A DNA stretch of 20,456 nucleotides from a virus. The DNA is taken from IMG/VR virus record IMGVR_UViG_3300040751_001251, positions 1 to 20,456 of that record; one strand, given 5' to 3'. Positions 12,135 to 20,456 of this stretch are shown one piece after another. The notes below the pieces were generated by a model. It saw only the letters and a program-made list of their open reading frames with translations. It searched no databases and was not told the origin of the DNA. The position numbers and the translations under genes are program-made. Numbering within the stretch: position 1 is the first letter of the stretch; every line of letters begins with the position of its first letter.

Positions 12135-12776
12135 ATGAAAGAGAAAAAATCATTTCTTTTGCATATTGATAGTTTGGATATATTGCAAAAGCTAACAGAT
12201 GAGCAGGCTGGAAAATTATTTAAAGCTATCGCATCGCATCACAATGGTTCTGATTATGAGCTTGATGATTTGCTTGACTTGGTATTCACGCCATTTAAGA
12301 ACCAATTCATAAGAGACCTTGAGAAGTACAAAAAAGTCAGTGAAAAGAGGGCTTTAGCTGGAAAGAAAGGCGGAAAGCAAAAGCAATCAAATCTAGCAAA
12401 TGCTAGCAAATGCAAACAAAACCTAGCAAATCTAGCAGATAGTGATAATGAAAGTGATAGTGATAGTGATAGTGATAAAGATATAAATACTTTAGATCAA
12501 TCAAAGATTGCTCGCGCACAACTGGAAGAAGATGCTTTCGAATACTGGTGGAAAGAATACCCGAAGAAGGTAGCCAAACAATCAGCCTTGAAAGCTTGGA
12601 AAAAAGTGATTAAGAAAATGGATGACGAAACTGTAACCGAATTAACCAATCACATTGTTAATGATGTTAAGTTAAGACTTGACGACCTGGCGACTGGAAG
12701 TGATAAGTTTATAGGCTTTGACAGACTTCACCCGACAACATATTTAAACCAAGAGCGATATAACGATGATATTTGA
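12135..12776 (+). CDS. Phage replication protein, initiator/helicase-loader type (lambda O/DnaT-like role)
   Basis: The protein has 213 residues. The N-terminal domain (about 1-75: SFLLHIDSLDILQKLTDEQAGKLFKAIASH, then a DLVFTPFKNQF helix) resembles the DUF6291-type domain common in phage replication proteins. A Lys/Gly-rich linker and a Ser-Asp repeat (about 80-120) follow. The C-terminal domain (about 130-213) contains EYWWKEYPKKVAKQSALKAWKKV and ends LHPTTYLNQERYNDD, a pattern I know from phage replication proteins next to DnaB-type helicases. Its gene overlaps the helicase gene by 11 bases. The linker-coding DNA contains iteron-like repeats, as the lambda O gene contains the lambda origin. 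The likely role is origin recognition and helicase loading; which of the two dominates is uncertain. Confidence 0.65.
   Translation: MKEKKSFLLHIDSLDILQKLTDEQAGKLFKAIASHHNGSDYELDDLLDLVFTPFKNQFIRDLEKYKKVSEKRALAGKKGGKQKQSNLANASKCKQNLANLADSDNESDSDSDSDKDINTLDQSKIARAQLEEDAFEYWWKEYPKKVAKQSALKAWKKVIKKMDDETVTELTNHIVNDVKLRLDDLATGSDKFIGFDRLHPTTYLNQERYNDDI
12393..12440 (+). repeat. Iteron-like direct repeats inside the replication gene, origin candidate
   Basis: CTAGCAAAT occurs at 12393-12401, 12403-12411 and 12423-12431, and a fourth copy with one change (CTAGCAGAT) at 12432-12440. Start-to-start spacing is 10, 20 and 9 bases, close to whole turns of the helix, so a protein could bind all copies on one face. 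A tandem hexamer tract and AT-rich DNA follow. The arrangement parallels the lambda origin in gene O. Confidence 0.55.
12454..12477 (+). repeat. Tandem hexamer GTGATA, four copies
   Basis: Four uninterrupted copies of GTGATA, with a fifth at 12442-12447, encode the Ser-Asp repeat of the replication protein linker. Changes in copy number would keep the frame. The tract may also be part of the origin, as it leads into the AT-rich sequence 12478-12500. Confidence 0.8.
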
Positions 12777-14085
12777 TAACGCAAACACGCTATTCAGCAC
12801 GGCGCTAATCAATGGAGTGTCACCGAGCCTGCGTGATGCCCTAGCAATGATTGATGCTGAAATGCTTGATAACCCAACTCAAGGGTTATTGTTAAACACA
12901 ATCAAGTCAATGGATAACTTCAACGTATCAATTAGCCTAATGTCTGTTGCCGAACAACTGGAAGGCAAAATAGACTTTGGCGATTTGGCGCAAATAACTA
13001 AAGATTACATACCAACACGCGACCCAATGCGCGAAGCTATGGCAATAATCAACATGCACAACGACAAACTTGCATTGATTGATTTAAACCAGATTATCAG
13101 CAAAGTTTCATCTGGCAGACCATTTGATCGCGAAGAAGTTAGTCACAAGCTAAATCAGTTAAGCTCGATTCTAGCGCCTCAGAGTCAATCTAAGCCGCGT
13201 TCTTTCCATGAGTATGCTGAATCGTACGTTAGTGTGCTAGAAAGCCGTCAGAGCGCACCACAGGACGCATATTTAGATATTGGCTTAGATGTTTTGATTG
13301 AAAAAATATCTTTGATTGTTCTTGGTGGTCAGCCTGGAATGGGTAAAACAGCACTAGCGCTCTACATAAATGACTACGTTGCAAAGCAAGGTAAAAAGGC
13401 GCTTATGTTCAGCCTTGAGATGGACGGCTGCCAATTGTTCGAGCGACAAGTAAGCGCATATTCAAAAATACCAACTGATAGGCTGATGCGTATTGATTTC
13501 GGTGAATATGATTTGTCCGATACTCAATGGGGCGTTATTGGCAGCTCGATGAAAGGCTTGTCAGAATTACCGATTTACATTGATGACGACCCTAAATTAA
13601 CCGTTCCTTTGCTTGTTAAAAAGTGCAAGGAATTTAAAGAGCAGCATCCAGACTTAGCGCTAATCACAATTGATTATTTAACGTTGATGAAAATGCCGGA
13701 CGCAGCTCGCAGGGATTTGGCAGTTGGTGAAGCAACGCGGATTATGAAAGTTTTGGCGAAAGAAATTAAAACGCCAATCCTGCTTTTATCTCAGTTAAAC
13801 CGTGACGCAGATAAAGCGTTAAGAGAGCCAAGAAATTCAGACTTGCGCGATTCTGGAAGCATTGAGCAAGATGCGGACGTGATTATATTCCCATACCGCG
13901 AAGAAGTTCATCAGCCAGACACAATAAACAAAGGTTTGGCTAAAATAATCAAATCAAAAGTTCGAAACGGAAAGGTGGGTAATTATATTCTCGGCTTTGA
14001 AAATGGATCATTCAAGCAACCGTTTAAGGAGTGGCAAGATGAAAAGCCAGAAGAAGAACAGAAGTTTGCAAGAAAGAAGTTTTAA
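12766..14085 (+). CDS. dnaB: Replicative DNA helicase, DnaB family
   Basis: The 439-residue protein has both DnaB domains: an N-terminal helical domain (about 1-100), a linker, and a RecA-like ATPase domain from about 165. The Walker A motif GGQPGMGKTA is at 187-196. The LFSLEM-type motif (ALMFSLEMD, 212-220) follows, then Walker B as LALITIDYL (297-305), the SQLNR motif (342-346), and KSKVRNGKVG (396-405) with the expected arginine finger. It unwinds DNA at the phage fork 5' to 3'. The length is slightly under that of bacterial DnaB (about 470), mainly in the N-terminal part. The start overlaps the upstream replication protein, which probably loads it. The last 50 bases contain the ribosome binding site and start of a possible tiny gene in another frame. 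Confidence 0.93.
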   Translation: MIFDNANTLFSTALINGVSPSLRDALAMIDAEMLDNPTQGLLLNTIKSMDNFNVSISLMSVAEQLEGKIDFGDLAQITKDYIPTRDPMREAMAIINMHNDKLALIDLNQIISKVSSGRPFDREEVSHKLNQLSSILAPQSQSKPRSFHEYAESYVSVLESRQSAPQDAYLDIGLDVLIEKISLIVLGGQPGMGKTALALYINDYVAKQGKKALMFSLEMDGCQLFERQVSAYSKIPTDRLMRIDFGEYDLSDTQWGVIGSSMKGLSELPIYIDDDPKLTVPLLVKKCKEFKEQHPDLALITIDYLTLMKMPDAARRDLAVGEATRIMKVLAKEIKTPILLLSQLNRDADKALREPRNSDLRDSGSIEQDADVIIFPYREEVHQPDTINKGLAKIIKSKVRNGKVGNYILGFENGSFKQPFKEWQDEKPEEEQKFARKKF

Positions 14086-14122
14086 CGGCACTAGACCAAA
14101 ACATTTAACAATAGATTTATAG
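14039..14122 (+). CDS. Possible 27-aa basic peptide overlapping the helicase gene end
   Basis: Inside the last codons of the helicase gene, in another frame, AAGGAG (14026-14031) stands seven bases before an ATG, an ideal initiation site and better than that of most neighbours. The frame runs past the helicase stop to a TAG directly before the AGGTGA site of the next gene. The predicted peptide starts MKSQKKNRSLQERSF and ends TRPKHLTIDL; it is strongly basic. Alternatively the ribosome binding site is accidental, as the same bases encode FKEW of the helicase. Filling the gap exactly favours a real gene. Confidence 0.5.
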   Translation: MKSQKKNRSLQERSFNGTRPKHLTIDL

Positions 14123-14129
14123 GTGATAT

Positions 14130-14447
14130 ATGTGTGAATGCGTAAAAGGTAAAAAATGCTATACGGTTGTTTTCGGTAAAATCACTGAAAGCGAGATTGT
14201 TAACGAAACACCGAAAGGCTACAGAGTGAAGAATGGTAAGAATAGATACGAGCATATGGTTTATAAGATCCGCACTTATTCTGGATGGTTGTCGGCTGAT
14301 GAGCGTTATTTTTACACCGAAAAAACAGTATTAAACCACGATGAAGCTTTGAAAATATGCAATGATCAAATTATGTGCATGGAAAACTATTACATGGCAA
14401 AGCTAAATAAAATACAAGCCCTTAAAAATAAATTTATAGGTGAATAA
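14130..14447 (+). CDS. Hypothetical phage protein
   Basis: The gene encodes 105 residues, with AGGTGA four bases ahead of the ATG. The N-terminal half is beta-prone (CYTVVFGKITESEIVNETPKGYRV, then KNRYEHMVYKIRTYSGW); the C-terminal half is helical with Lys and Asn. Four cysteines are present (C2, C4, C10 and two near residues 80-85), but their spacing does not make a clear zinc site. It sits between helicase and NinG, where small Nin-type genes of unknown role are usual. The stop lies one base ahead of the next gene's ATG. I do not recognise the family. Confidence 0.65.
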   Translation: MCECVKGKKCYTVVFGKITESEIVNETPKGYRVKNGKNRYEHMVYKIRTYSGWLSADERYFYTEKTVLNHDEALKICNDQIMCMENYYMAKLNKIQALKNKFIGE

Positions 14448-14448
14448 G

Positions 14449-15027
14449 ATGAAACAAGCAAAGCAAAAAAAGTGCAAGCAATGTAAATCACCATTCACAC
14501 CATTTAATTCAATGCAGAAAGTTTGTGGCGCTCAGTGCGCCCAAGCTTTTGCTGTATCTGAACGTGAAAAGAAAGAAGCCAAAGCAAAAAGCGATGAAGT
14601 TAAGCGAGTGCGCCAGAAGCTAAAACAGATAAGTATGAAAGATAGGCCAAAAGCCATGCGTGCGGCTCGTGAGGCGTTTAACGCATTCATTAGGTATCGT
14701 GACAAGGATTTACCATGTATAAGCTGCCAGAGGCACCACCAAGGTCAATATCACGCAGGGCACTACAAAACAAAGGGCGCTCATCCTGAGCTTGAATTCC
14801 ACGAGGATAATTGTCACAAGCAATGTGCTCCATGCAACAATTATTTAAGCGGTAACATTGTTAATTATCGCCCCAATTTAATTGATAAAGTCGGACTGGA
14901 AAAGGTTGAATGGATTGAAGGTTCTCACGAACTTAAAAAATACACAGTTGATGAGCTATGGCAAATACGCGACACATACAAAGCTAAATTAAAAGAGTTA
15001 AAAGCGCTTGACTGTGATATGAATTAA
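14449..15027 (+). CDS. ninG: NinG/Rap-like recombination protein
   Basis: The 192-residue protein has a double zinc-site layout. An N-terminal ribbon has KKCKQCK and VCGAQC (cysteines about 9, 12, 26, 30); a basic helical linker follows; then a C-terminal domain with LPCISC (90-93), a YHAGHY motif (101-106) and NCHKQCAPCNNYLSGN (121-136), the order typical of NinG. In lambda, NinG (Rap) is a structure-specific nuclease that resolves branched recombination intermediates, fitting the annealing protein of this phage. ATG 14449 is chosen over the GTG nine bases upstream because AGGTGA at 14438-14443 would overlap that GTG and is well spaced for the ATG. The stop lies in a hairpin just before the next gene. 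Confidence 0.88.
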   Translation: MKQAKQKKCKQCKSPFTPFNSMQKVCGAQCAQAFAVSEREKKEAKAKSDEVKRVRQKLKQISMKDRPKAMRAAREAFNAFIRYRDKDLPCISCQRHHQGQYHAGHYKTKGAHPELEFHEDNCHKQCAPCNNYLSGNIVNYRPNLIDKVGLEKVEWIEGSHELKKYTVDELWQIRDTYKAKLKELKALDCDMN

Positions 15028-15043
15028 ATATATATTTCATATC
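15016..15043 (+). promoter_or_regulatory. Hairpin across the ninG stop and ahead of the next ribosome binding site
   Basis: GATATGAA (15016-15023) and TTCATATC (15036-15043) form a perfect eight-base inverted repeat with an AT-only loop. The right arm ends immediately before AGGAGGT, so pairing could affect access to that site. No T-tract follows, which argues against a terminator. Confidence 0.45.
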
Positions 15044-15054
15044 AGGAGGTAGTA

Positions 15055-15225
15055 ATGGCAAAATATAAACAAATAGATTTTCAAAGCGAAGAATTAGTAA
15101 AAGCAATCCAGCTTTACGCTGACGAAAACACAGAGGGTAATTTTAATTTAGCGGTTCGCCAGTTATGCAAAAATGGCGTTGGATTTAACAAGAAATGCCG
15201 GTCACGTTGCCCGGTTGGTAAATAA
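15055..15225 (+). CDS. Small hypothetical protein (56 aa)
   Basis: An ATG follows a near-perfect Shine-Dalgarno site (AGGAGGT at 15044-15050), the strongest in the window. The 56-residue product starts MAKYKQIDFQSEELVKAIQLYADEN and continues NFNLAVRQLCKNG, two likely helices, with a basic Cys-containing tail KKCRSRCPVGK. The helical part recalls short RHH-type or CopG-like domains, but I cannot assign it. It lies between ninG and the next unknown gene in the same direction, 12 bases before it. Confidence 0.7.
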   Translation: MAKYKQIDFQSEELVKAIQLYADENTEGNFNLAVRQLCKNGVGFNKKCRSRCPVGK

Positions 15226-15237
15226 ATAGGTGGATGT

Positions 15238-15657
15238 ATGAAATTGATAAAAAACACCCAAAAAGAAGTTAGCTATAAATATCTGCAAGTAGATGTTGAT
15301 CCGCGATACTGGGAAGATGCAGAGATTAATGGCGAGTCAGATGAAGAAGGTAGTAACGTTCCGTTTAAAATTGGCTCTCAGTGGAAGCCATTGATAGATC
15401 TTGAAAGTGGCAGTGTTGTTGGTTGGCCTAACGGCGTTACTGCTTCATTTTATTTTAAAGTTTGTGATGCTGGTGACTATTACCTTTTAGACGAAAGTAA
15501 AAATGTTGTTGCAACACACAATAACTATTATGTACCTAACGGGTTACTTTGCTATGGCGATAATGGTTTTGGTGATTACATTATTTTTTCAGTCGATGAA
15601 AGTGGTAAAATTATCGGGTATGAAAAGCCAGATTTAGAGCCAGAACATTGGGATTAA
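15238..15657 (+). CDS. Conserved-looking phage protein of unknown function
   Basis: The 139-residue soluble, acidic protein has many aromatic residues. It contains the segments VDVDPRYWEDAEINGESDEEG (about 18-38), QWKPLIDLESGSVVGWPNGVTASFYFKVCDAGDYYLLD (about 48-85) and YVPNGLLCYGDNGFGDYIIFSVDESGKI (about 97-125). I have a sense of having seen this arrangement in uncharacterised phage and bacterial proteins, but can name no domain. Tandem beta strands suggest a compact beta fold. The ribosome binding site is AGGTGG, nine bases before the ATG. It lies in the nin-like region among recombination and DNA metabolism genes. Confidence 0.65.
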   Translation: MKLIKNTQKEVSYKYLQVDVDPRYWEDAEINGESDEEGSNVPFKIGSQWKPLIDLESGSVVGWPNGVTASFYFKVCDAGDYYLLDESKNVVATHNNYYVPNGLLCYGDNGFGDYIIFSVDESGKIIGYEKPDLEPEHWD

Positions 15658-15699
15658 AAAACTTCAAACTAACACCAGCTATGCTACCTGAGTTAAAAA

Positions 15700-16137
15700 A
15701 TGGCTAAATACAACTTAACAAAAAATGCTGGCGGGGTTTTCACGCCAGCTAGCGACCTAGAAGCTAAGCGCTTAGAGCGGTTAAAAACTGGTTGTGTGTT
15801 TGAGGTTGAGATAGTCCAGCGTAGGAATCCAAAATTCCACGGTAAAGTTTTTGCTTTTTTTAACTACGTTTTTGAATGCTGGCATCAAGGTCACGAGTTT
15901 CATGATGAAGATAAGCAATTTAACGAGTTTAGAAAGCAGTTAACTATACTGGCAGGTTTTCACGATGAGCTTTACGATATTGGTGGGAATCTAAAGTTAG
16001 AAGCGAAATCACTTGCTTTTGATAAAATGGAGCAAGAAGAATTTGAGCAATGCTATAACGCATTGATACGAGCTGCAATCGTTAATGTTCCAGCGGTTGC
16101 AGATGACGAAAACAGATTATTATCATTTTTTAATTAG
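15700..16137 (+). CDS. DUF1367 family phage protein
   Basis: The 145-residue protein shows the hallmarks of DUF1367: an N-terminal strand, a FTPASDLEAKRLERLKTGCVFEVEIVQRRNPKFHGKVFAFFNYVFECW stretch (about 14-62) including the conserved RNPxFHxKxFA core, and a helical C-terminal part. Members are found in the nin-like regions of many gammaproteobacterial phages; their role is not established, though the neighbours suggest recombination or DNA binding. The ribosome binding site is poor (GAG at about nine bases). A separate eight-codon frame starting at 15681 runs into this start and may help re-initiation. Confidence 0.75.
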   Translation: MAKYNLTKNAGGVFTPASDLEAKRLERLKTGCVFEVEIVQRRNPKFHGKVFAFFNYVFECWHQGHEFHDEDKQFNEFRKQLTILAGFHDELYDIGGNLKLEAKSLAFDKMEQEEFEQCYNALIRAAIVNVPAVADDENRLLSFFN

Positions 16138-16146
16138 GATATAAAA

Positions 16147-16662
16147 ATGGCATCAAGAGGAATTAATAAGGTTATACTTGTTGGTAATGTAGGGCAAGAT
16201 CCAGAAGTGCGCTACATGCCAAATGGCGGCGCGGTAGCAAATCTTACACTAGCAACAAGTGAAAGCTACAAAGATAAAAACACAGGCCAGCAAGTTGATA
16301 AAACCGAATGGCACAAGGTTTCCTTCTTTGGCAAGCTGGCGGAAATTGTAGGCGAGTATGTCCGAAAGGGATCGCAAATTTACATTGAAGGTAAATTGCA
16401 GACTCGCAAATGGCAAGACCAGCAAGGTCAAGACCGCTACACAACTGAAATTATTGTTGATGGCTTTAGTGGTGTTATGCAAATGTTAGGTGGTAAAAAT
16501 GAACAGGCAAATCAAAACAACCAGCGGCAAAACCAGCAGCAACAAGGAGGCTTTAACAACCAGCAGCAAGGTGGCTTTAACCAACAACAAAACCAAGGCT
16601 TTGCGCCGCAGCAACAGCAAGGTGGATTTGCACCGCAGCAAGGTCAAAGCCAGCAATTTTAA
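16147..16662 (+). CDS. ssb: Single-stranded DNA-binding protein lacking the acidic C-terminal tip
   Basis: Residues 1-115 are a full OB-fold [67 protein letters not shown] and [10 protein letters not shown] are all present and close to bacterial SSB. The tail (116-171) is rich in Gln, Asn, Gly and Phe, with repeated QQQGGF units. It ends in GQSQQF, not in the DDDIPF-like acidic tip through which bacterial SSB recruits PriA, RecO, DNA polymerase III chi and others. The reading frame shows no sign of a frameshift, and no such tip is encoded just after the stop. It probably coats phage single strands during replication and annealing without recruiting the host partners in the usual way. Confidence 0.92.
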
Positions 16663-16667
16663 TTAAA

Positions 16668-16681
16668 GCGCCTTCGGGCGC
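16668..16681 (+). promoter_or_regulatory. GC hairpin with TTCG tetraloop after ssb
   Basis: GCGCC (16668-16672), TTCG (16673-16676) and GGCGC (16677-16681) form a very stable hairpin six bases after the ssb stop and just ahead of the AGGTGA site of the next gene. Without a T-tract it is more likely an mRNA-stabilising or processing element than a terminator. Confidence 0.55.
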
Positions 16682-16693
16682 AATAGGTGAATT

Positions 16694-17275
16694 ATGAAAT
16701 TTAGTGAAATTGTTGAAAAATTAAAACCAGTTTACGCAAAGATTGATGAGCAGCGCTTAAATATTATATTTGAGTTTTTTATCTTGCCAAAAGAGTGTGA
16801 GACGGCTCAGCGAGGCGCTAAGATTATAAAAGACAAGTACGGCATAGTTATTGGTCATCGCCAGCTATCAAGGTGTTTAAGTGCGTTAAAAAAGATGGGC
16901 TACGAAGTCGCTCCGCCGATTAATCGAACAATGACTAAGCAGCAATATATTGATGAGGTCAGTAAAACGTCACGGTCATCTATTGAGGTTATAACTGCAA
17001 TCTACAGCAATCTAGCTAGTAACACTCGCAAGAGTAACCACTTAATGGCTAAGTCTCTAAGTACAGATACAAAGGAGTTTAATGTTCAAACTGTCAAGAA
17101 TATTAACCATCTTTTCATTGGTTTGGGATTAAAAGTTAAACCAGTTAGAAATCAAAAATTGGACGGCGTAAAAGGGCGAAAGCTTGGAACTGTTGAAGGT
17201 GATGGCGTTGTTAGATGGAATCCAGAGCACAAGCTAATGCCAGAAGCATTTAAGCATCTTGATAATGCGTGGTAA
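16694..17275 (+). CDS. Winged-helix-like protein, candidate late regulator
   Basis: The 193-residue protein is not recognised as a named family. Two segments look like winged-helix DNA-binding units: AQRGAKIIKDKYGIVIGHRQLSRCLSALKKMGYEV (about 38-73) and NHLMAKSLSTDTKEFNVQTVKNINHLFIGLGLKVKPV (about 115-151), each with a probable recognition helix followed by a wing. The last 19 residues, WNPEHKLMPEAFKHLDNAW, share a motif with the ends of the next protein and of a tiny downstream frame. It lies after ssb and before the lysis genes, the place where lambda has the Q antiterminator, so a late-gene regulator is plausible; this is inference from position and fold alone. The AGGTGA site is correctly spaced. 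Confidence 0.6.
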   Translation: MKFSEIVEKLKPVYAKIDEQRLNIIFEFFILPKECETAQRGAKIIKDKYGIVIGHRQLSRCLSALKKMGYEVAPPINRTMTKQQYIDEVSKTSRSSIEVITAIYSNLASNTRKSNHLMAKSLSTDTKEFNVQTVKNINHLFIGLGLKVKPVRNQKLDGVKGRKLGTVEGDGVVRWNPEHKLMPEAFKHLDNAW

Positions 17276-17280
17276 TAACT

Positions 17281-17592
17281 ATGAATCGTTTAGAGGCAAT
17301 AGAAAAGGCGGCAGGCAAAAAAGGTAATGAGCTAATAGCTGAATTTGTTTTTGATGTATGCGTTGACCGCCCTGAACGATTATCCACGGCAGAGATAGTA
17401 GATAGACTTGAGTGCGTTGATGTATTCACTAATAAAGAAACCGTAAATATATTTATCAGGAAGTATATCGAATACGGCTTTTGCGTTGGTGAGCAACCAG
17501 AGACTAGAGATAATGATTTTACTGGTTCATTAAACTGGAATCCAAAACCAATAAACTTCTCTGGTATTAAAAACTTAAAAGGAACATGGTAA
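17281..17592 (+). CDS. Small winged-helix-like protein related to the C-terminal half of its neighbour
   Basis: ATG 17281 is preferred to an in-frame GTG at 17269 that overlaps the upstream gene; neither has a good ribosome binding site. The 103-residue product contains LSTAEIVDRLECVDVFTNKETVNIFIRKYIEYGFCV (about 35-70), similar in layout to the second winged-helix-like unit of the preceding protein. It ends WNPKPINFSGIKNLKGTW, sharing the WNPxx...W tail. It therefore looks like a shortened tandem paralogue. The codons for the LKGTW end (AAAAGGA) also provide the Shine-Dalgarno site of the next gene, nine bases before its ATG. Function unknown; DNA binding is likely. Confidence 0.6.
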   Translation: MNRLEAIEKAAGKKGNELIAEFVFDVCVDRPERLSTAEIVDRLECVDVFTNKETVNIFIRKYIEYGFCVGEQPETRDNDFTGSLNWNPKPINFSGIKNLKGTW

Positions 17593-18036
17593 ATGAGTGA
17601 TTTAAATATAAAACCAATTTTGGAATGGTTTCAACAGGCAAAGCCAGAGCCAGACATTGAGGACATCTGCGTTCAAATTGGTTGTCATTATGAAGAAGTT
17701 GCAGAGATGTCTGAATCTTTTGGGTGTTATGGTTTATCTAGTCATATCTCGCAAATATCAAATCAATTTAAAGATAGATATAGCGGAATGGTTTACAAAC
17801 TTGATTGCAATAATGATTTTAACAGAGTTAAGGTTCTTGATGACTTATGCGATCAAATTGTAACTGCAATCGGCGTGGCTTATATGCTTGGTTTTGATAT
17901 TGAAAAAGCGCTAGCAGAAGTTAACCGCTCTAACTGGTCTAAGTTTGTTGATGGCAAGCCTGTATTTAACGAGCAAGGCAAGATTGCAAAACCTGATAGT
18001 TATTCGCCACCTGAATTAAAGGAGTTTATCAAGTGA
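17593..18036 (+). CDS. MazG-like nucleoside triphosphate pyrophosphohydrolase
   Basis: The 147-residue all-helical protein has the metal-binding pattern of the MazG/PRA-PH superfamily: EEVAE at 34-38 in one helix and LDDLCDQ at 82-88 in another. The C-terminal section ALAEVNRSNWSKFVDGKPVFNEQGKIAKPDSYSPPEL is typical of phage members. Such enzymes hydrolyse (d)NTPs to monophosphates and pyrophosphate; phage forms may clean or adjust nucleotide pools or lower ppGpp, though the substrate here cannot be read from sequence. The ATG directly follows the stop of the upstream gene, and its own stop overlaps a possible tiny frame. The gene is framed on both sides by copies of the WNPxx...LKGxW tail motif. 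Confidence 0.75.
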   Translation: MSDLNIKPILEWFQQAKPEPDIEDICVQIGCHYEEVAEMSESFGCYGLSSHISQISNQFKDRYSGMVYKLDCNNDFNRVKVLDDLCDQIVTAIGVAYMLGFDIEKALAEVNRSNWSKFVDGKPVFNEQGKIAKPDSYSPPELKEFIK

Positions 18037-18089
18037 ACCCAAAGCCGTTAACTAAAAATCAATTTAAACATTTAAAGGGAGCTTGGTAG
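18033..18089 (+). CDS. Possible 18-aa peptide consisting only of the shared tail motif
   Basis: A GTG overlapping the upstream stop (GTGA) sits eight bases after AAAGGAG (18018-18024). The 18 predicted residues, starting from the GTG as Met, read NPKPLTKNQFKHLKGAW after the start, matching the ends of the two winged-helix-like proteins upstream. The codons for LKGAW include AAAGGGA, which is the ribosome binding site for the next gene, whose GTG overlaps the TAG. It may be a coupling leader peptide, or the remnant of a third paralogue whose body is lost. Confidence 0.45.
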   Translation: MNPKPLTKNQFKHLKGAW

Positions 18090-18481
18090 TGAAGCGAATA
18101 AACATTAAAACGATGCACTTGCCAGACTGTACTGTAGGTGTACTGTCTTTTTGCGGATTGCGGTTATTCACTCTTGAATTGCCATGGATTGATAATGAAA
18201 AAAATGTGAGCTGCATACCTCGCGGAATTTACAGGGCGTACATTAGAAACTCACCAGCTAATGGTTACGTTTTAGAGCTTCTAGAAGTGCCAAACAGAAC
18301 TCACATTCAAATTCACTCAGGCAATTTCACTCATCAAATAAAAGGCTGCATACTTGTTGGTGATTCTATAAAAGATATAAATCAAGATGGTGTGCCAGAC
18401 GTAACAAACAGCAAGACCTCACTTGCTAAGCTGTTAAATAAAATTGGCATTGATGAGCAGGTCGAAGTTTGCATTGAGTAA
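18089..18481 (+). CDS. DUF5675 family protein, lysis-region
   Basis: The start is placed at GTG 18089, which overlaps the upstream stop and is eight bases after AAAGGGA; an earlier in-frame TTG has no better support. The 130-residue product matches the DUF5675 pattern: MHLPDCTVGVLSF, LFTLELPWIDNEKNVSCIPRGIYRA (about 25-50), then VLELLEVPNRTHIQIHSGNFTHQIKGCILVGDSI and DGVPDVTNSKTSLAKLL. The block with conserved His, Gly and Cys (about 70-92) recalls L,D-transpeptidase-like folds, which would fit a role on peptidoglycan, but activity is not established. No signal peptide is seen. It precedes the small membrane protein and the holin, so it probably belongs to the lysis cassette. Confidence 0.75.
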   Translation: MKRINIKTMHLPDCTVGVLSFCGLRLFTLELPWIDNEKNVSCIPRGIYRAYIRNSPANGYVLELLEVPNRTHIQIHSGNFTHQIKGCILVGDSIKDINQDGVPDVTNSKTSLAKLLNKIGIDEQVEVCIE

Positions 18482-18500
18482 ATATAGAGAGCGTGAAAAA

Positions 18501-18623
18501 ATGCTAGTTAAGCAATATAGAAACAAAAAGACAAAGCAGAGTAAGTTTAAATTTACTTTGTTTTGCATCGCGGCTTTTGTTGTTGTAAGCCTGGTTGTTT
18601 TATTTGGGTTTATTGGGGGTTAA
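18501..18623 (+). CDS. Small basic single-pass membrane protein in the lysis cassette
   Basis: A 40-residue frame starts at ATG 18501 with GAGAG nine bases upstream; an in-frame TTG at 18474 (giving MSKYREREK before it) is an alternative and would overlap the upstream gene. The N-terminus is strongly basic (VKQYRNKKTKQSKFKF), followed by one hydrophobic helix LFCIAAFVVVSLVVLFGFIGG. The basic end should stay in the cytoplasm. Between DUF5675 and the 3TM holin it could be an antiholin, a second holin or an inner-membrane lysis partner; the sequence does not decide. The stop lies two bases ahead of the holin ATG. Confidence 0.65.
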   Translation: MLVKQYRNKKTKQSKFKFTLFCIAAFVVVSLVVLFGFIGG

Positions 18624-18625
18624 AT

Positions 18626-19126
18626 ATGGACTGGAAAAACACACTAAACAGCATTGCACCGACAATAGCCACAGCTTTAGGTGGGCCATTAGCTGGTGCT
18701 GCTACAAAGTTTATTGGTGATAAGTTGCTAGGCAATGAAAATGCAAGCGAGCAAGATATTAGCGATGCTGTATTGAGTGCTAGTTCCGCTGACTTAGCCA
18801 AGCTAAAGCAAATGGATTTAGAATTCAAAGCTGAAATGAAAAAGCTTGATGTTGATGTCTTTGAGATTGAAGCAAAAGACAAGCAGGATGCTAGAAAGAA
18901 TCACAAACGCTCTAACATGCCAGCAATTCTTAGTATTGGATTAACGGTTATAGTTTGCGTGATTGTATTCTTATTGTTTTGGCTAGAGCCGCCAGAGGGT
19001 GCGCGTGAGGTGCTTTACATGCTTCTTGGTATGGTACTGAAAGAATGGGGCGGTTCAATGCAATACTGGTTTGGTACAACTCGAAGCAGTAGTGATAAGA
19101 CAGAGTTAATAAAAGGTTCAAAATGA
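18626..19126 (+). CDS. Holin, 3TM family (GTA holin type)
   Basis: ATG 18626 with GGGGGT about five bases upstream is taken as the start; a longer frame from a TTG upstream merely reads through the small membrane protein in another frame. The 166-residue product has an N-terminal small-residue helix (IAPTIATALGGPLAGAATKFIGDKLLG, about 9-35), a long charged helix (about 45-95, with LKQMDLEFKAEMKKLDVDVFEIEAKDKQDARK), then two membrane helices: ILSIGLTVIVCVIVFLLFW (about 103-121) and LYMLLGMVLKEWGGSMQYWF (about 131-150). This matches the three-TM phage/GTA holin family that permeabilises the inner membrane for lysis. No endolysin is obvious in the window apart from the DUF5675 candidate. The stop overlaps the next start. 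Confidence 0.8.
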   Translation: MDWKNTLNSIAPTIATALGGPLAGAATKFIGDKLLGNENASEQDISDAVLSASSADLAKLKQMDLEFKAEMKKLDVDVFEIEAKDKQDARKNHKRSNMPAILSIGLTVIVCVIVFLLFWLEPPEGAREVLYMLLGMVLKEWGGSMQYWFGTTRSSSDKTELIKGSK

Positions 19127-19299
19127 GCGATAACGTAGAAAGTGTAGACTTTGGCGTAAAGACTGGTGCAGTTGCAGACTTTGAGCGAGAAATGGAAAAG
19201 GTTATTTGGCAATACGCAGAACATATGACAGTAGCGGAGTTGCTTGGAACGATAGAGTGTGTAAAATACAAAGTAATCAACACCATTGACTACTGTTGA
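19123..19299 (+). CDS. Small hypothetical protein (58 aa), last gene of the lysis operon
   Basis: An ATGA overlap with the holin stop and an AAAGG site seven bases upstream support this frame. The 58-residue product is acidic and helical: MSDNVESVDFGVKTGAVADFEREMEKVIWQYAEHMTVAELLG, ending in a strand or helix with Cys. No membrane segment or known motif. Coupling to the holin suggests co-expression at lysis; a cytoplasmic lysis modulator is possible. The terminator follows 26 bases later. Confidence 0.65.
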   Translation: MSDNVESVDFGVKTGAVADFEREMEKVIWQYAEHMTVAELLGTIECVKYKVINTIDYC

Positions 19300-19325
19300 T
19301 GTCCTAAAAATATACTTGATCAAAC

Positions 19326-19352
19326 AAAGCGCTGCGCTAACAGCGCTTTTTT
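19326..19352 (+). terminator. Intrinsic terminator after the lysis operon
   Basis: AAAGCGCTG (19326-19334) pairs with CAGCGCTTT (19341-19349) around a six-base loop, with six T residues at 19347-19352. It is a strong terminator and separates the lysis genes from the clamp-like gene unit. Confidence 0.9.
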
Positions 19353-19368
19353 ATTGCACAAAATAAAG

Positions 19369-19395
19369 TTGCAATGTTAAATATATAGGTATACA
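19369..19395 (+). promoter_or_regulatory. Promoter candidate for the clamp-like gene unit
   Basis: TTGCAA (19369-19374) and TATACA (19390-19395) are 15 bases apart; shifting the -35 by one (GTTGCA) gives 16. The preceding terminator makes a new promoter necessary, which supports an otherwise moderate match. Confidence 0.45.
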
Positions 19396-19432
19396 CTCAG
19401 TAAAAATACACAATAAACAAACAAGGTGAATT

Positions 19433-19981
19433 ATGAAAATAGATACGTGCAAATTGAGAGCTGCGGACGCATTTAGAGCGAAAGGCGATATTAGGAATTA
19501 CTTAAACGGAATTAGAATAAACAATAATTACATACAAGCAACAAATGGGCATATTGCAATACAAATGGATAGCGGAGTAAAAACAAGGCTTGACGTTATC
19601 GTTAGGTTTAAAGGGAAAATCCCACCCAAGTCTCAAAAAACAAAGCTTGAGTTTAGTAAGGGTAAAAATATTGCATACCATTATGATTCGCTAGGTGAGT
19701 TAATATCAGCTCAGGTTTTTGATATTGAGGATGGTAAGTACCCGCAATTTGAAAGAATAATTCCTGAAAAAATGGTTAAAGGTAGCCAATTCCCACCGCT
19801 AAATATAGATTACATGGCAGTAATAAAAAAAGCTTTTCCAAGAGAAAGTTTCATGGCTGTTAGGCCTATTAATTACGATAAAAACAAAGCGGTAATTTAT
19901 GAAGTGACAGAGTTTCAAAAGCACCTTTACGGAAACCCAGTTATCATAATTATGCCTACTAGATGGGTGATGAATAAATGA
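19433..19981 (+). CDS. Miniature DNA polymerase III beta-clamp-like protein
   Basis: The 182-residue protein carries several sliding-clamp signatures in the right order. DIRNYLNGIRINNNYIQATNGHIAI (about 19-43) matches the DVRYYLNG...VATDGHRLA region of E. coli beta domain 2. VFDIEDGKYPQFERIIP (about 95-111) matches its DGRFPDYRRVLP loop. NIDYMAVIKKAF and the final VIIIMPTRW match the end of domain 3 (YVVMPMRL). It is half the length of a bacterial clamp (about 366), lacking domain 1 and much of domain 3. It may form a smaller or higher-order ring, act as a processivity factor for a phage polymerase, or compete with the host clamp for partners. It opens a new transcription unit with an AAGGTGA site. 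Confidence 0.7.
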   Translation: MKIDTCKLRAADAFRAKGDIRNYLNGIRINNNYIQATNGHIAIQMDSGVKTRLDVIVRFKGKIPPKSQKTKLEFSKGKNIAYHYDSLGELISAQVFDIEDGKYPQFERIIPEKMVKGSQFPPLNIDYMAVIKKAFPRESFMAVRPINYDKNKAVIYEVTEFQKHLYGNPVIIIMPTRWVMNK

Positions 19982-20154
19982 CACCATCACAATACATAAA
20001 ATCAAAAACCAGCCACCTAAAAGCTAACGTAACTATTCAAATGGTAGCTGATAGCGTAGATAAAAGCCGTCAAACGGTGGCTAACTGGTACAAAACAAAC
20101 CCCAAGCTATTAGATGCTTGCATATTAAAAACAATTAAAGATTTAAGTGAGTGA
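19978..20154 (+). CDS. Small helix-turn-helix protein (58 aa)
   Basis: The frame starts at an ATGA overlap with the clamp-like gene. The 58-residue product contains VTIQMVADSVDKSRQTVANWYKTNPKLLDACI (about 18-49): the helix-turn-helix pattern of small Cro-like proteins, with QMVADSVDKSRQTVANWY as helix-turn-recognition helix. It could regulate its own unit or the genes beyond the window. Coupling to a clamp-like gene is unusual for a repressor. Confidence 0.65.
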   Translation: MTPSQYIKSKTSHLKANVTIQMVADSVDKSRQTVANWYKTNPKLLDACILKTIKDLSE

Positions 20155-20157
20155 ATT

Positions 20158-20208
20158 ATGATTAACTGGCTAATAACTAACATGCTAATGGGTGGATATG
20201 ATGAATAA
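20158..20208 (+). CDS. Very short frame (16 aa), doubtful
   Basis: ATG 20158 lies three bases after the previous stop, with a weak GTGA site, and the frame MINWLITNMLMGGYDE overlaps the next start. It may only help ribosomes to reach the following gene; there is no independent sign of function. Confidence 0.25.
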   Translation: MINWLITNMLMGGYDE

Positions 20209-20456
20209 GAACGCAATTACAGTAATAGACCAAGAGCTTATTGATAATATTGAATTATCAATCAATAGAAATGACGGCTATTTTGATAGCTCAAAAGTAG
20301 AAGAACTGATTACCATGGCTAAAGACCTAATAGAGATTAACGAAGAGCTAACTAAGCGTGAGCAGAAGGTGTTAAGTTTAATTAATGATGGCTCATGGAA
20401 TGGATATAACGCAGTTGATGTTATTGATGCTCTATATGTAATTTTAAGAGGTGAAT
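20201..20456 (+). CDS. Hypothetical protein, cut by the window edge
   Basis: The frame starts at ATG 20201 (an adjacent in-frame ATG at 20198 is also possible), after a GGTGG site, and is still open at the end of the window. The 85 visible residues are helical and acidic: MNKNAITVIDQELIDNIELSINRNDGYFDSSKVEELITMAKDLIEINEELTKREQKVLSLINDGSWNGY. No domain is recognised. It belongs to the same unit as the clamp-like and small HTH genes. Confidence 0.6.
   Translation, partial: MNKNAITVIDQELIDNIELSINRNDGYFDSSKVEELITMAKDLIEINEELTKREQKVLSLINDGSWNGYNAVDVIDALYVILRGE

Follow-up and report, generated by a model that had tools for sequence, protein, structure and literature searches.

Exchanges at gene ends in other phages

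Site-specific elements integrate into the 3' ends of genes and restore them: the gene is given a new 3' end, and its former end is pushed downstream. In the Cluster I mycobacteriophages, Island3 has a gene 68 that is absent from Brujita and in which the last 18 residues, over ~60 bp, are a repeat of the 3' end of gene 67 just upstream; Brujita (gene 66) possesses one recombinant copy (PLoS One 2011 6:e16329, PMC3029335). The authors attributed this to recombination between ~50-bp sequences, gain of the gene being indistinguishable from its loss, and short conserved boundary sequences in mosaic phages are discussed in the same article (PMC3029335).

The locus described here is found in a window of 20,456 nucleotides (the whole stretch of DNA analysed, positions 1 to 20,456 of IMG/VR record IMGVR_UViG_3300040751_001251) from a phage described as marine-type. 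Its anatomy is nearly identical to that of Island3 and Brujita: the 3' end of a gene occurs twice, on either side of an extra gene, and relatives without the extra gene have one copy. In Island3, however, the extra gene itself (gp68, 85 aa) has the second copy as its own C-terminus, whereas in the window the extra gene ends earlier and the second copy is a separate 18-codon frame (C18) with its own Shine-Dalgarno (SD) site and a start overlapping the stop of the extra gene. The repeated sequence also resembles short conserved boundary sequences in being conserved at junctions with different adjoining genes on one side in each phage, but it is coding, forming the C-terminus of a protein (hereafter the tail), and it holds the SD of the next gene. 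The replacement of a gene end and downstream displacement of the old one are shared with 3'-end-integrating elements, although here there is no integrase and no exact core repeat, and one gene of 444 bp lies between the copies. A further likeness is to the gp28-gp27 pair of Pseudoalteromonas phage TW1, in having a MazG-like gene (69% protein identity to gp28, the closest in phage records), a 4-nt overlap and a next gene start of ATGAACCCA; unlike in the window, the next gene in TW1 is a complete lysozyme-like gene, and there is no tail motif. By analogy, the event in the window appears to be of the same kind as that of Island3 and Brujita, in an unrelated phage group, and it would add a second phage group to the anatomy reported from mycobacteriophages.

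Genes and tails of the locus

The features of the locus are as follows (coordinates of the window).

16694-17275, + strand: gene A, ORF of 193 aa, no family match
17216-17272 (stop 17273-17275), + strand: tail of gene A, WNPEHKLMPEAFKHLDNAW, read from the sequence
17281-17592, + strand: gene B, ORF of 103 aa, or 107 aa with GTG 17269 as the start, no family match
17521-17592, + strand: linker and tail of gene B, a patch diverging from the relatives
17533-17589 (stop 17590-17592), + strand: tail of gene B, NWNPKPINFSGIKNLKGTW, read from the sequence, upstream copy of the repeat
17577-17583, + strand: SD for the MazG-like gene, AAAAGGA, inside the LKG codons of B
17593-18036, + strand: MazG-like nucleotide pyrophosphohydrolase, 147 aa (phrog_671, E=7e-33)
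18018-18024, + strand: SD for C18, AAAGGAG, within the 3' end of the MazG-like gene, 8 nt before GTG
18033 (GTG) to 18087-18089 (TAG stop), + strand: C18, MNPKPLTKNQFKHLKGAW, i.e. M followed by NPKPLTKNQFKHLKGAW
18074-18081, + strand: SD for the DUF5675 gene, AAAGGGAG, inside the LKG codons of C18
18089-18481, + strand: DUF5675 protein, 130 aa (PF18925, E=9e-25)

An initial annotation of this DNA had described three tails of NPxx...W type, at the ends of A, B and the 18-codon frame, and these were found at the same positions. Alignment of the tails with one another gave scores of 23 (A-B), 37 (A-C18) and 45 (B-C18), each of which exceeds the maximum of 15 obtained with 290 other C-terminal 22-mers, drawn from the remaining ORFs of the window and from the fetched loci, a likeness far above chance. 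Since the B tail and C18 are identical at only 35 of 60 DNA positions, the longest repeat reported across them being 12 nt with two mismatches, the pair was not recovered by a direct-repeat search with a 24-nt minimum. The tails were seen to bracket the MazG-like gene, as had also been claimed, with the B tail (17533-17592) on one side and C18 (18033-18089) on the other, and this is the only gene between the two copies.

Within one phage group, proteins A and B both have this tail as a conserved C-terminus. The two were rejected as full-length paralogues, the alignment between them being significant in the tail only. Profile searches of A and B gave no significant Pfam, PHROG or NCBIfam match, and a profile of the two found no further members. 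The suggestion that they are winged-helix proteins was judged on these family profiles and on AlphaFold2 models whose mean pLDDT of 45-46 is too poor for assessment of a fold. The MazG-like protein is a member of a common phage family and has a weak match to DR2231 structures; a cyanophage MazG is described in one report as a pyrophosphohydrolase unable to hydrolyse magic-spot nucleotides (PMC6850273).

Translation signals

The LKGxW codons of the last two tails had been proposed to contain the SD of the following gene, with the next start abutting or overlapping the stop. This holds for both: the ATG of the MazG-like gene at 17593 abuts the B stop, and the GTG of the DUF5675 gene at 18089 overlaps the TAG of C18 by one base. 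The broader idea of the tail doubling as a ribosome binding site applies to B and C18 only, as the tail of A (LDNAW, with LDN codons) holds no SD; the start of gene B has a weak one. C18 also possesses an SD of its own, absent from the initial annotation, with a duplex of -8.2 kcal/mol compared to a 5% quantile of -6.1 for random sequence, so that at most one other SD of the region is as strong, and its GTG at 18033 overlaps the stop of the MazG-like gene by 4 nt (GTGA). Judged by its start and SD signals, C18 is probably translated and probably serves as a translational coupler from the MazG-like gene to DUF5675; no evidence of a function of the C18 peptide itself was found. The combination of tail and coupling is better taken as the end of one gene with the SD of the following gene inside it, seemingly duplicated by recombination.

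Relatives and their gene order

Homologues of gene B were identified in only three other IMG/VR contigs. One of these, IMGVR_UViG_3300040806_001299 (loci L004 and L005), differs from the window at only 2 of 7,763 bases, which lie at the extreme end of the match, and by this measure is the same virus. The match of this 37.3-kb contig extends over positions 12694-20456, and the window appears to be a fragment of that virus. The two informative relatives are L006 (IMGVR_UViG_3300005920_000050) and L007 (IMGVR_UViG_3300040751_001900), which count as nearly one independent lineage because they are close to each other at the locus.

In both relatives A and B occur in the same order as in the window, with B homologues of 78-79% identity which end in NPKPLDKNQFKHLKGAW, i.e. 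NW[N/S]PKPLDKNQFKHLKGAW, and with the next gene starting at the B stop. The gene that follows the B tail is MazG-like in the window, DUF5675 in L006 and lysozyme-like (MNPEQL...) in L007, and all three have an SD within the tail; the lysozyme-like label was taken from distant relatives, which are annotated as endolysin or murein transglycosylase, there being no Pfam match. The MazG-like gene and C18 are absent from L006 and L007, records that are possibly incomplete and that cover the locus itself, and these have one tail copy of B compared to the two flanking the MazG-like gene in the window. Where the initial annotation had proposed a comparison of relatives for different genes between the copies, the phages compared have a single tail and lack the MazG-like gene. 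C18 was seen in one viral lineage only, the second contig that contains it being the same virus.

The sequences of L006 and L007 diverge from the B stop and converge again after the next gene, and L007 rejoins the window at 18483, after the lysozyme-like gene. The DUF5675 gene (L006 4312-4704) and the lysozyme-like gene (L007 4312-4824) swap exactly, from the B stop to a gene for a small membrane protein. This exact swap suggests a possible role of DUF5675 in lysis by these phages.

Evidence for a probable recombination scar

The repeated tail is likely to be a recombination scar, namely a duplicated B tail at a mosaic junction, and the MazG-like gene appears from these alignments to lie at that junction. 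With BLASTN, window 17200-17591 (the A tail and B) matched L006 3920-4311, and window 18035-18634 matched L006 4258-4857 at 89.8%, as one 600-bp block running from inside the B tail through DUF5675 into the next gene; the DUF5675 DNA itself is 89% identical to that of L006. The single B tail of L006 (4258-4311) is used twice by these alignments and, since both blocks cover it, both window copies map to that one tail.

Over the last 48 nt of the tail, C18 is identical to L006 at 43 positions and to L007 at 42, compared to 31 and 30, respectively, for window B. Being nearer to the B tail of the relatives and still joined to DUF5675, C18 is therefore taken to be the true counterpart of their tail, i.e. 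the 3' end of a B gene that has been orphaned. The copy at present on window B is more distant from the relatives. Similarity between window B and L006 drops from 206/241 in the body to 44/71 in the linker and tail (Fisher p = 4e-5). The end of the relatives' single tail matches C18 (42-43/48), and of its first 24 nt 14-15 are shared with B versus 12-13 with C18, a slight gap.

A similar break was found in gene A. On comparison of window 16694-17275 with L006 3387-3995, 56 of 173 residues of the body are identical (about 32%, a figure that holds for the L006/L007 homologue) as against 17 of 20 (85%) in the tail, the switch occurring at the RWNP codons, and the DNA from the A tail into B is 92-95% identical to the relatives; A therefore also changes history at the tail. 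Given this break and the split between L006 and L007 after B, more than one point of exchange coincides with the tail, in the manner of short conserved boundary sequences, and its copies bracket the MazG-like gene because genes have been exchanged there. The earlier view of the tail as a cassette for gain or loss of genes stands to the extent that the copies flank an exchanged gene and that three different genes follow the same tail, but it fails as regards a portable element.

Possible routes to the arrangement

A single crossover is put forward tentatively as the route. The first parent would have carried gene B directly followed by DUF5675, an arrangement that exists in L006. The second would have carried a diverged B, a MazG-like gene and a lysozyme-like gene beginning ATGAACCCA (MNP...); this order is hypothetical as a whole and was not found in any collection searched, and its MazG-lysozyme half exists in TW1. 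If the two had crossed over where the lysozyme-like gene has its MNP start codons and the B tail its WNP codons, the MazG-like gene, along with the SD and start signal left by the downstream neighbour it lost, would have been fused to the orphaned B 3' end and DUF5675, so that one event would yield the whole arrangement including the start, SD and overlap of C18. C18 would have kept its start, would probably be translated and would pass ribosomes to DUF5675, and it would persist because it holds the SD of that gene and hands over ribosomes. Exchange of neighbouring genes would take place at the tail, which would act here as a short conserved boundary.

In TW1 the MazG-like gene is followed by the lysozyme-like gene with a 4-nt ATGA overlap (CAAATGAACCCA, compared to CAAGTGAACCCA in the window), and the TW1 lysozyme-like protein is 56% identical to that of L007. 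The start of the TW1 lysozyme-like gene reads CAAATGAACCCACAA, the window CAAGTGAACCCAAAGCC and the B tail of L007 AATTGGAATCCAAAGCC; the window matches TW1 up to CCCA and then the B tail. Since the geometry of the C18 start (GTGA overlap, strong SD and "TGAACCCA") is like that of the MazG/lysozyme-like junction of TW1, the MNP/WNP crossover would be the likeliest cause. Only about 7 bases of microhomology occur at the right junction, and the tails of L006 and L007 also have GAAYCCA-like letters, so that the origin of the first three codons of C18 is tentative.

It is possible, though rather unlikely, that two exchanges took place instead, a donor segment of B-type tail and MazG-like gene having entered the 3' end of B in an L006-like phage, given B the donor's tail in place of its own and displaced the old tail downstream, i.e. 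a gene gain with replacement of the 3' end. This competes on the route only, the scar being common to both. The patch-like divergence of the B linker and tail from the relatives fits such an insertion, as does C18 with DUF5675 being the relatives' arrangement, but two exchanges are required, and by itself the insertion leaves unexplained why C18 begins like a normal gene, with a start codon, an SD and a 4-nt overlap.

Loss in the relatives appears unlikely. Here the two-copy state would be older, with L006 and L007 having dropped the MazG-like gene by recombination between the tail copies. The single tail of L007 does look somewhat recombinant, sharing TGGAATCC with window B and its remainder with C18, and the published Island3/Brujita pair is equally ambiguous (PMC3029335). 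However, the identity between the copies is only 35/60 bases, window B has a linker unlike that of the relatives, and the origin of a frame consisting of the tail only would go unexplained.

A doubtful reading is that the tail serves as a coding "docking site" for exchange, its codons giving both homology for recombination and the SD of the next gene so that both genes stay working. In this phage group it would have served at more than one junction, namely those of the A body, the B linker, the MazG-like gene and DUF5675/lysozyme-like, with C18 as a retained coupler peptide.

It is improbable that C18 is a functional micro-protein gene, maintained independently because its peptide has a binding partner in common with the A and B tails. 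The open frame with its strong SD and the conservation of the A tail but not of the A body would agree with this, but the latter is accounted for at the DNA level by a mosaic boundary, and C18 is confined to one viral lineage.

Distribution of the tail

The search for the tail pattern in phages that the initial annotation had proposed gave matches only in the related contigs: of the IMG/VR sequences, three related contigs matched the tail DNA patterns, and none of the genome contigs did. No meaningful match to the tail peptide was obtained by tblastn in phage records, where A and B also have no homologues, and B has none in plasmids or genome contigs. A general tie between the tail and MazG-like genes was rejected, as 16 other MazG-like loci of IMG/VR and TW1 have no tail upstream. 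Among DUF5675 relatives elsewhere, one distant locus was informative, and there is no tail before it.

No integrase, transposase, terminal repeat or exact att core repeat was identified with the tail copies. An integrase-borne element in a gene 3' end was rejected, only the MazG-like gene lying between the copies. The promoter-gene-terminator structure of a moron was also not seen, a consensus scan giving no + strand terminator and no clear promoter-like excess over shuffled sequences.

The claim that the tail is portable was not borne out, with the tail confined to one small phage group, other MazG-like genes without it and no recombinase. A portable tail-plus-coupling cassette, i.e. a module selected for insertion with translation intact, is accordingly very improbable. 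The presence of three different genes after the same tail in three phages, each time with an SD inside it, and the break of gene A at the tail would suit such a module, but its restriction to one phage group, the lack of a recombinase and of element-type repeats, and the A tail without an SD speak against it. Chance resemblance with a short spurious frame can be dismissed as extremely improbable, for although short frames are common, the tail scores lie above all 290 nulls and the DNA block matches the gene end of the relatives.

Implications and neighbouring exchanges

Taken as a probable scar, the locus offers a readable case of gene swapping without broken expression, the join being placed within a conserved gene end with the following gene's SD inside it, and the leftover of the swap would have become a micro-frame, C18. 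It also advises caution, as tiny frames beside accessory genes can be recombination debris.

The genes at the SSB position (window 16147-16662, L006 2962-3318 and L007 2809-3318) are also exchanged, with L007 possessing the SSB type of the window and the L006 protein being shorter and of another kind. A second frame, which overlaps the end of the SSB-position gene in L006 and L007, reads ...PPIDFDDDIPF, a typical SSB C-terminus; the SSB of the window ends in QSQQF.
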